DNA of 64,000 bases from Kribbella qitaiheensis. Lineage in GTDB: Bacteria > Actinomycetota > Actinomycetes > Propionibacteriales > Kribbellaceae. Numbering within the stretch: the stretch's first letter is position 1; every line of letters begins with the position of its first letter. The notes below the pieces were generated by a model that was not told the DNA's origin, made no database searches, and was given only the letters and a program-made list of their open reading frames with translations. A program made the translations under genes and the position numbers. The stretch covers positions 5,456,001-5,520,000 of the forward strand of contig NZ_CP043661.1 in assembly GCF_014217565.1 (NCBI RefSeq). Direction: 5' to 3'. This document shows positions 6,610 through 59,922 of this stretch, piece by piece.

Positions 6610-7050
6610 CTCGCTCCTCCGTTGCTCCCGCTACGCCCGCTCCCACCCACCCCTCCCCGCCCGCGGGTGCGGCTCGTCTTCTGCCAGACCGCTAGGGAAA
6701 CTCCGCAGGAGTCACGGTGATCGGAGCTCGGGTCGGGACGCTCCAGCGAGTCGGCTTGTGGACCAGAGGTGGGGTGAGGCCACGGAGGCTTTTAGGGCTG
6801 GAGGTTCCTCCTGGGAATGGACAAGCCGTACATCCGCCTGCGTACTCTCCGCCGGTGCCCACCGGAAGTGGGTCGGCTCCCCAGCTTGGTCGAGTGAACT
6901 CGGGGCTTCGGACACCCCGTCGGGGGTCCGGGCCGCCGGGGGTCCGGGCACCATGCCCGAGCGGGGGACGAGGCATTCCCGGACCCTGGACCCCGGAAGG
7001 TGTCCTAGGCCCACCGATGGCAGCCACCCCCGTTCGCCCCCAGCGCGGGG
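6610..7050. other. Non-coding or degenerate stretch, no gene supported
   Basis: Every open frame here is Pro/Gly/Arg-rich with no recognisable domain and no convincing start and ribosome site. A short repeat, CCGGGGGTCCGGGC-like, occurs twice near 6910-6950. A minus-strand frame ending near 6692 has a plausible C-terminal end (PTRAPITVTPAEFP) but nothing upstream resembles a protein, so at most it is an old gene remnant. Confidence 0.4.
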
Positions 7051-7197
7051 CGTCTTTGTGCACCGGCTGAGTATCCCGCCCCCCGGGAAACGCTCACTGG
7101 ATGCACAAAGGCCGGCAACCGACGCGGGCGTTCCGCACCTTTGTGCACGGCCTGAGCAAGCGATCGCCCGGGAACGCTGAGCCGGTGCACAAAGACG
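7051..7197. repeat. Two-hairpin repeat element, copy 1, with 18-bp terminal inverted repeats
   Basis: The ends are an exact 18-bp inverted pair: CGTCTTTGTGCACCGGCT at 7051-7068 and AGCCGGTGCACAAAGACG at 7180-7197. Inside there are two hairpin units of 57 and 56 bp, each bounded by CTTTGTGCA and TGCACAAAG (7054-7110 and 7139-7194), separated by a 28-nt spacer starting GCCGGC. Inner stems are also present (TCCCG/CGGGA in unit 1). The reverse complement of unit 2 aligns with unit 1 (CTTTGTGCACCGGCT then CAG, then CCCG), so the element consists of two inverted homologous modules, like a BIME/REP pair or a MITE. A second copy of this arrangement lies at 58969-59107. No coding function is seen. Confidence 0.8.
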
Positions 7198-7486
7198 TCT
7201 GCACCGCAGGCAACGGGGCGTCCCAGAAGCCCCAGCCTCGGAGCCAACCGGCCTGCCCAATCACGCTCCGCGCGACGTGACCAACCCCATAAGGCCCCCG
7301 GTGCCCCCGCCCCGACGGCGAACGAACTCCCAACCGATTCCGGCCGGCTGCAGAGCCGCTCCATCGCCTCCCCGCCCCTGCGGGCGAAAGTACTACCGCC
7401 AACGCCGCCGCTACCACCAACGCGGCACAGGACAAACACCCGAGACCAACTTGTCCAGCACGTACAAACAGTCCTGGCTCCTTCGA

Positions 7487-58829: not shown

Positions 58830-58834
58830 TGCGA

Positions 58835-58866
58835 AACCACCCTCGCCTCCTCCGGCGAGGGTGGTT
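58835..58866 (+). terminator. Terminator of the purN-purH operon
   Basis: AACCACCCTCGCC at 58835-58847 pairs perfectly with GGCGAGGGTGGTT at 58854-58866, loop six bases, followed by CTTCGTT. Confidence 0.9.
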
Positions 58867-58968
58867 CTTCGTTCCCACGAGCCCACCCGGCTACGCCGCT
58901 CCCGCGTCGCGGCTAAGCCTGCAAGGTGGCGCTGTGGATGATGGCGGCCGAAGAATTCCCCGGAGCGC

Positions 58969-59107
58969 CTCTGTGCACTGGGTGAGCGTCTATCCGGAGA
59001 CAAGCGCTCAGCTCATGCACAAAGGCCGGCGGCAGGCGCGCAGTACGGCGGCTTTGTGCTCCGGGTGAGTGCCTGGCGGCCGGTAGTTGCTCAGGTCGTG
59101 CACAAAG
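58969..59107. repeat. Two-hairpin repeat element, copy 2
   Basis: Two hairpin units of 56 bp each: 58969-59024 (CTCTGTGCA to TGCACAAAG, one mismatch, inner TGAGCG/CGCTCA) and 59052-59107 (CTTTGTGCT to TGCACAAAG), separated by a 27-nt spacer that begins GCCGGC, as in the copy at 7051-7197. The terminal sequences differ more between the two ends than in copy 1. Like copy 1 it lies shortly after a large plus-strand gene and its terminator, next to a decayed gene fragment. Confidence 0.75.
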
Positions 59108-59152
59108 CGGGGTGCGCTCGACCTGACCCCTCCGGCAACAAGCAGGGCCAGG

Positions 59153-59319
59153 ATGAAGGGCCGTACGGCGTACTGCTCGCGGATCGGCATCACCAACGAG
59201 AGCGGCGATCACCTCGGCGGTGTGGTCAAGCCGAGCTTCCAGGGGCTGACCCGATCTTCGACGACCCACCACCACGCTTCAACCAGTACTACGGCCTCGG
59301 CGACCTCATCTGGCGGTGA
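59153..59319 (+). pseudogene. Frameshifted C-terminal gene remnant
   Basis: From an ATG at 59153 one frame reads GRTAYCSRIGITNESGDHLG and GGVVKPSFQGLT, all protein-like; then the sequence becomes Ser/Thr-rich. The adjacent frame carries a natural end, DPIFDDPPPRFNQYYGLGDL, with stop at 59319. The two would join at about 59250. Unlike the others in the window, this break is not a single surplus base (two bases over, or one lost). No family recognised, no N-terminal part, so a remnant. The stop overlaps the GNAT gene by 14 bp. Confidence 0.4.
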
Positions 59320-59758
59320 GTTTGGTGAAGTGGACTCGTTCGAAGCCGTGGAAGGCCTCTCGGTGGGTTTCTGTGTAGCCGTGATGGGGGTAGTAGGTGA
59401 GGTTTTCGGTCATGGCGACGTTCGTGTAGAGGGTGATCTGGTGGTGGCCGCGGGAGTGGGCCTCGGTGTCGACGAAAGCCAGTAGTGCGGAGCCGACTCC
59501 TGTGCCCTGTGCGGTGGGGGAGACGGCGATGACGTCCAGGAGGAGCGCGTCGGGCTGGTCTTCCAGCAGGACGAAGCCGATCACCGTACTGCGATCATCC
59601 GCGACCCAGACTTTGCCGGAGTCGATCGCGGCTGCGTAGTCGACCGTCATCGGGAAAGGCGGGCGGCCGATTCGGGGGATGTAGAGCTCGAAGGCCGCCT
59701 GGGCGATCGCGGTGACGGGGGTGGCGTCGGCGGGGGTGGCGGGCCGGATCTTCAGCAT
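59306..59758 (-). CDS. GNAT family N-acetyltransferase
   Basis: 150 aa, complete. IRPATPADATPVTAIAQAAF starts the fold; the acetyl-CoA loop is in VSPTAQGTGVGSALL (QGTGVG), followed by the YTNVAMTENLTYYPHHGYTE strand-helix and FERVHFTKLTAR at the end. Substrate unknown. ATG at 59758. It is divergent from the chitinase gene; the palindrome at 59793 lies between them. Confidence 0.88.
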   Translation of the reverse strand: MLKIRPATPADATPVTAIAQAAFELYIPRIGRPPFPMTVDYAAAIDSGKVWVADDRSTVIGFVLLEDQPDALLLDVIAVSPTAQGTGVGSALLAFVDTEAHSRGHHQITLYTNVAMTENLTYYPHHGYTETHREAFHGFERVHFTKLTAR

Positions 59759-59792
59759 GGCGGTGAGCTTAGGAGACTTCGTCCAGGCGATG

Positions 59793-59816
59793 GGGTAAGA
59801 AAGCGCTCTCTTACCC
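59793..59816. promoter_or_regulatory. 24-bp LacI-type palindrome upstream of the chitinase gene
   Basis: GGGTAAGA (59793-59800) and TCTTACCC (59809-59816) are exact complements around AAGCGCTC, itself containing the palindrome AGCGCT typical of LacI-family operator centres (compare the CebR box with an AGCGCT core in Streptomyces). Position about 110-130 bp upstream of the chitinase start suggests repression by a sugar-responsive LacI protein. The regulator is not in the window. Confidence 0.6.
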
Positions 59817-59922
59817 GCGGGTCACGGTGGAAAATGTTTTAGTAGAGAGGTTGCTTAACTATTCGCGGCCTGCCTATGGTGATCCGGCTCGTTGTCCCTC
59901 GAACCGCCCGTTGGGGAGAACC

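Follow-up and report, generated by a model that had tools for sequence, protein, structure and literature searches.

Introduction

REP-type palindromes are among the commonest repeats of bacterial genomes and, to our knowledge, the HUH transposase RAYT is the only dedicated enzyme known for such palindromes. Combinations of REP palindromes with RAYT/TnpA-REP are termed REPtrons (PMC2817692, PMC3733652, PMC8266576). GTAG REPs have been listed for Proteobacteria, Cyanobacteria, Chloroflexi and the PVC group, with Actinobacteria unmentioned, and no enzyme is known for REPs of the CGTC class (PMC3733652). The 147-bp element described here, from an actinobacterial genome, is probably a dimer of REP-like DNA palindromes belonging to a REPtron-like two-part system whose dedicated protein is not of the HUH type, a reading drawn from sequence comparison. 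A search of the open-access literature found no prior description of this pairing of gene and palindrome, which may have been described elsewhere.

Results

Paired palindromes in the window and across the genus

The window, i.e. the whole 64,000-nt stretch of DNA that was analysed, corresponds to G000:C1:5456001-5520000 and lies within a one-contig genome of 8.16 Mb (G000). The preliminary description had reported, at positions 7051-7197, a 147-bp two-unit element with a 28-nt spacer and 18-bp outer inverted repeats, and both the coordinates and the exact repeat were reproduced. The element consists of a first palindromic unit of 57 bp (7054-7110), the 28-nt spacer (7111-7138) and a second unit of 56 bp (7139-7194), units and spacer being features without strand; both units are of the TGAG flavour and match the pattern of the ~57-bp unit (CTTTGTGCAY-N4-TGAG...) exactly. 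The outer inverted repeats (left, 7051-7068 on the plus strand; right, 7180-7197 on the minus strand) are exactly 18 bp long, with the sequence CGTCTTTGTGCACCGGCT, and form the outer stem in the predicted fold of the 147-nt element (z = -5.95). The motif CTTTGTGCA-N3-10-TGAG occurred five times in the window, as compared with 0.00 expected from dinucleotide shuffles, and the full unit pattern matched three times, as compared with no matches in shuffled windows.

A diverged second copy with the same layout and spacer start, also proposed previously, was recovered at 58969-59107 and is a second, older pair of the same palindromic units. Its first unit (58969-59024) has one mismatch to the constant arms, its 27-nt spacer (59025-59051) opens with GGCCGGC, as does the spacer at 7111-7138, and its second unit follows at 59052-59107, with similarity to the MITE described below confined to the core; the fold of the pair gave z = -2.43. 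The pair lies at the 3' end of purH and, among genus genomes with a readable purH 3' end, was found in G000 only, ruling out an ancestral conserved site. A chitinase-like gene located further downstream in G000 directly follows purH in G030, G027, G007 and G028, and in the window (58830-59826) a GNAT gene (59306-59758, minus strand) and the palindrome pair stand between purH and the chitinase-like gene.

Exact units numbered 24 in G000, with none in the reversed control, and were present in 24 of 38 genomes of the genus as against none of 260 genomes from other genera of the order. The likeness to BIMEs or REP pairs noted in the preliminary description was thus borne out, the element being a paired REP/BIME-like palindrome with copies across the genome and the genus. 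The accompanying concern, that there might be only two copies and none in relatives, falls away because copies occur genome-wide and genus-wide. A match in a Ruminococcus MAG, from the scan of named genomes with the strict TGAG unit, was dismissed as chance because its 49-bp span is shorter than a unit.

The outer 10-mer of the units is near-constant (CTTTGTGCAC; at the gene locus, other species have CYTTGRGCAC and CTTTGTGCTC), and the inner arms come in flavours typical of the genome (TGAG; TCCG/GCCG; CGAC/CAAC; TAGC). Of 110 units, 94 were 57 bp long, and the palindrome loop measured 15-18 nt. The two halves of a unit were of equal flavour in 95 of 110 units, compared with 68 expected under within-genome reshuffling, and positions 11-14 matched across the palindrome more often than in within-flavour shuffles (p=0.001). 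Mismatches in sense orientation comprised 48 G.T and 47 A.C, or 16 and 17, respectively, adjoining stop codons, and since these mismatches lack a G.U bias the palindrome appears to be maintained as DNA rather than as an RNA hairpin. With no excess of G.U over A.C and no Rfam match for the element, the structured-RNA role suggested at first was not upheld.

Tandem arrays of three to five units with conserved spacers were observed at L018 (4818-5059), L081 (2943-3415), L082 (2818-3225) and L254 (1170-1474), with periods of 93, 104, 175 and 83 bp, respectively. Unit number within an array differed between G016 and G006, and among the loci examined there were differences in array number only, with no clean single-unit empty site. 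The neighbours of dispersed units, as read from the sequence, were diverse, ruling out a single gene family adjoining all of them.

A gene bracketed by cognate palindromes

An ORF of ~340 aa is flanked by units at a syntenic locus that has a GNAT gene on one side and a HesB-like gene on the other; in G000 it occupies G000:C1:7570495-7571532 (minus strand), 2.1 Mb from the window element. ORF and units were present together in ~19 of 30 genomes examined at this locus, and the locus was empty in seven species (G022, G018, G011, G019, G012, G035 and G024), the gap between the GNAT and HesB-like genes measuring 100-139 bp when empty versus 1166-1402 bp when occupied. In G015 one unit is kept and the gene is absent, while in G010 gene and units are both absent and other DNA is present; upstream of the HesB-like gene in G010 (L124), two copies of another palindrome, CTTTCAAGTACCGGCCACC...GGTACTTGAAAG, were observed. 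Comparison of the occupied locus of G025 with the empty one of G011 placed the end of the right unit 0-2 bp from the junction; the left junction coincides, in several species, with an additional half-site, ACTTTGAG....

Bracketing by cognate palindromes on both sides was found for 27 copies of the gene (20 a-copies and seven second-locus or other copies), a set that includes two copies with a broken gene and one fragment, and the G007 copy, which sits at the edge of a contig, and a remnant in G032 each have a palindrome on one side only. Such palindromes have a background density of 0.12 per 4 kb. Copies at the second locus (b) are bracketed by a different palindrome, CTTTGAGAAG-CCACCAACCA...TGGTTGGTGG-CTTCTCAAAG, a copy in G031 is bracketed by yet another, and a- and b-copies with their different palindromes coexist inside single genomes (G013, G017, G023 and G029). 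In the genus search, the orthogroup of the bracketed protein was sharply separated, with at least 52% identity, from the next paralogues, with at most 39%. Fourteen distant paralogues used as controls had no a-type units except for a MITE beside one of them, and four had some palindrome nearby. The seven other copies in G000 are without a-type units, except for one beside a MITE, ruling out that all AbiEi paralogues share these palindromes. Two of the four controls with a nearby palindrome, the distant AbiEi/DUF559-like paralogues at L098 (1319-1430 and 2515-2564) and L273 (1150-1175 and 2205-2265), have GGGGTT-type (also GGGGGTT) palindromes or arrays of their own on both sides.

The invariant residues of the bracketed protein are E203/E207...D240...E251-x-D253-G254...K257, in the context ...SESALES...RVDFWWP...T(V/I)xEADGL.K..., a motif taken here to resemble the Vsr/DUF559 type of PD-(D/E)XK nuclease. 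PADLOC AbiEi models matched 21 of 21 orthogroup members (best 9e-11), and the paralogues matched AbiEi_4 above the cut-off and DUF559 and REase_MTES_1575 weakly. Pfam and NCBIfam searches of the orthogroup returned nothing significant except AbiEi_1 in 5 of 21 members (best E 2e-4), and a PDB profile search with the orthogroup yielded nothing informative. Judged by the motif and the weak profile matches, the ~340-aa protein appears to combine an AbiEi-like winged-helix half with a PD-(D/E)XK-like nuclease half. No AbiEii partner was recognised among the called neighbours (HesB-like and GNAT, named by eye from sequence). A RAYT-like transposase, which had been put forward as a possible partner of the element, did not emerge: Y1_Tnp (PF01797) had no matches in G000 and controls gave signal, the bracketed protein has neither a PF01797 match nor an HUH motif among its invariant residues, the element is without the GTAG/CGTC tag, and the palindrome-linked gene is of another kind.

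Co-occurrence and co-divergence of palindrome and protein

As a test of prediction, the b palindrome was first read off the flanks of b genes and then sought genome-wide. It was present in all six genomes with a b gene (2-22 copies) versus 6 of 32 without (Fisher p=3e-4), and a-type units were present in 19 of 21 genomes with an a gene versus 5 of 17 without (p=1.5e-4), these p values treating the genomes as over-independent because the genomes are related. The main exception is G002, where 15 b-type units were counted although a b gene is missing, at a guess through loss of that gene. Eight b-type palindromes of GCGC inner flavour occur in G022 (L290 and L302), with no b gene at the threshold used, and five a-type units occur in G018, with no a gene. 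The genome-wide counts leave out units of the CYTTGRGCAC type, so the match between dispersed units and resident a gene in G021, G025 and G029 lies outside their scope.

Across 18 copies, protein distance was correlated with the distance between flanking palindromes (Mantel r=0.87, p=0.0002). For the 12 a-copies, the correlation of palindrome with protein distance held when purH distance was controlled (partial Mantel r=0.89, p=0.0002), and that of palindrome with species (purH) distance was r=0.02. Palindrome divergence tracks protein divergence, not species divergence, and part of this co-divergence could be joint transfer, since gene and flanking palindromes travel together.

Placement of the units and candidate explanations

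The favoured explanation is a system of two parts, in which the first would be the ~57-bp palindromes scattered between genes, their outer 10-mers constant and their inner arms variable, and the second the gene for a ~340-aa protein, which has these palindromes on either side. Linkage of gene and palindrome, their co-divergence, their correlated presence and absence, the empty sites and the dispersal of the units are all established from the sequences. We infer that the protein would bind its cognate palindrome as a dimer and, as conservation of the acidic motif suggests, would nick or cut beside it, so that copies of the palindromes, and now and then of the entire gene module, would arise at new places. 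Preferred places would be those just behind stop codons, where insertion may be least harmful. Of 92 clusters of units, drawn from many genomes, 72 had a facing stop; in 31 of these 72 the nearest stop codon was no more than 20 bp away, and start codons were mostly farther off (median near 90 bp), gene calls having been made with a codon-usage caller of our own that missed some genes, e.g. the bracketed ~340-aa ORF. Units of the b type were likewise near stops (7 of 12).

An unlikely alternative is that the protein is an AbiEi-like DNA-binding regulator, with the palindromes serving it as operators or boundary sites and forming an old regulon or nucleoid-type set that is not mobile. The strict unit length is as would be expected of a dimeric DNA-binding protein and its sites, and the absence of strand bias among mismatches, the tracking of the protein by the inner-arm sequence and the location of some units in divergent promoter regions (L018 and L082) are all in keeping with such a role. 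However, the sites favour the 3' ends of genes over their starts, the gene is bracketed downstream and not just upstream, the site at purH is species-specific, the module is either there in its entirety or missing altogether, and the C-terminal acidic, nuclease-like motif is invariant, all of which tell against a regulator with its sites.

A MITE carrying the dimer

In G000 the 147-bp dimer occurs as ~30 full-length and ~8 partial copies, in nested forms comprising the 147-bp core, a ~185-bp form (the core plus an extra arm, GCGGTACGGACGT.../...ACGCCCGTACTGCGG) and a ~540-bp form. The ~540-bp form, with ends CTAGTGTCCTGCTTCTGAAGTTCGCTGGATAAGT... and ...CTTATCCAGCGAACTTCAGAAACAGGACACTAG, is represented by six copies of 97-99% identity (L025-L030, one of them shortened at one end) and has the attributes of a MITE, being short, non-coding and near-identical in multiple copies, with 34-bp terminal inverted repeats and defined ends, CTAG standing at both. 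The MITE likeness raised previously was confirmed in that the window element sits inside a decayed copy of the ~540-760-bp type, which spans 6850-7459 (no strand assigned), contains the two-unit core and has a 77.8% identity to the L024 copy over 644 columns; both its ends are decayed, and its intact relatives have CTAGTGTCCTG.../...CAGGACACTAG ends. No distant pair of matching ends was present in G000, and therefore no autonomous parent was found there. It would appear that in G000 one two-unit dimer was caught in a ~540-bp CTAG-ended MITE and spread with it to ~30 loci, the window copy included.

The 4-bp CTAG ends presumably recall the YTAR targets of IS5-type elements. As CTAG bounds the ~540-bp MITE on both sides, target duplication and a palindromic target look the same; CTAG also supplies a stop codon whichever strand is read, and the MITE could therefore insert between convergent genes without harm. 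Four composites in G021 (L087-L090), in each of which ~120 bp separate two CGAC/CAAC units in inverted orientation, lie ~92-163 bp from the stop codon of either convergent gene and are probably another MITE carrying these palindromes.

It is very improbable that the window element is simply the inner part of an ordinary non-autonomous DDE-type MITE, with palindromes that have no system of their own. The six near-identical copies with their inverted repeats and CTAG ends, and the decayed member in the window, agree with this explanation, which can account for how the 147-bp dimer spread in this species but leaves the palindrome family unexplained, given that units without MITE sequence occur both singly and in arrays (L018, L019, L022 and the 58969 pair) and that units with other inner arms occur in 23 other genomes of the genus. 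Because MITE-free units exist, an ordinary MITE is refuted as the full explanation and true as a partial one. Least credible of all is a structured RNA or transcription terminator at gene ends, with which the placement behind stop codons and the stable folds would agree, but not the parity of G.T and A.C mismatches in the sense strand, the lack of a U tract or of an Rfam match, the constant sequence of the outer arms, or the presence of units in divergent regions.

Discussion

Beyond the REP-like dimer itself, the data may point to a new class of mobile palindromes, in which REP-like elements would be spread by an AbiEi-winged-helix/PD-(D/E)XK nuclease rather than by an HUH or DDE enzyme and which, with the distant paralogues, could constitute a widespread actinobacterial counterpart of REP/RAYT annotated as lone antitoxins. 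This broader reading is put forward tentatively, as a serious possibility rather than a probability, the suggestion of a widespread counterpart coming from the distant AbiEi-nuclease paralogues at L098 and L273 and the palindromes of their own beside them. If true, an unrelated nuclease-like partner would mean that the REP lifestyle has more than one origin, orphan AbiEi/DUF559-like genes would, as a group, gain a function, and the matched protein-site pairs, with a and b types in one cell, would make recognition and dissemination directly testable.

Of the known systems compared, the AbiEi antitoxin of type IV AbiE shares with the bracketed protein the N-terminal and middle similarity detected by the PADLOC models in all 21 members, and differs in that the bracketed protein has an extra nuclease-like C-terminus, cognate palindromes around its gene and no AbiEii recognised among its called neighbours. 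The G000 element agrees with CTAG-ended MITEs in its 34-bp terminal inverted repeats, its lack of coding sequence, its multiple copies and the CTAG at both ends, and departs from them in having no autonomous parent in the genome and a core of REP-like palindromes. As in BIMEs and REPINs (PMC3116915), two palindromes at a fixed spacing, here 27-28 nt, are amplified as a unit, whereas amplification of the dimer in G000 is by a CTAG-ended MITE.

The closest resemblance in organisation is to REPtrons. The system differs from these in its AbiEi-like protein with a PD-(D/E)XK-like half in place of a Y1/HUH transposase, in the form of its palindrome (~57 bp with a 15-18-nt loop, an outer 10-mer of the CYTTGDGCAC or CTTTGAGAAG kind and a half-site profile without the GTAG/CGTC tag), and in its copy number, which reaches a few dozen as opposed to hundreds. 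Because two defining features of REPtrons, the Y1 protein and the GTAG tag, both fail, the system is described as working like a REPtron and is not called one. Shared with REPtrons are a single gene set between two copies of the palindrome cognate to it, further palindromes dispersed as singles, inverted dimers and arrays, palindromicity that is retained while the sequence drifts, co-divergence of protein and palindrome with different palindromes at paralogues, and placement within ~20 bp of stop codons, the REPs of Pseudomonas and Sphingomonas likewise lying just behind stop codons (PMC3733652).
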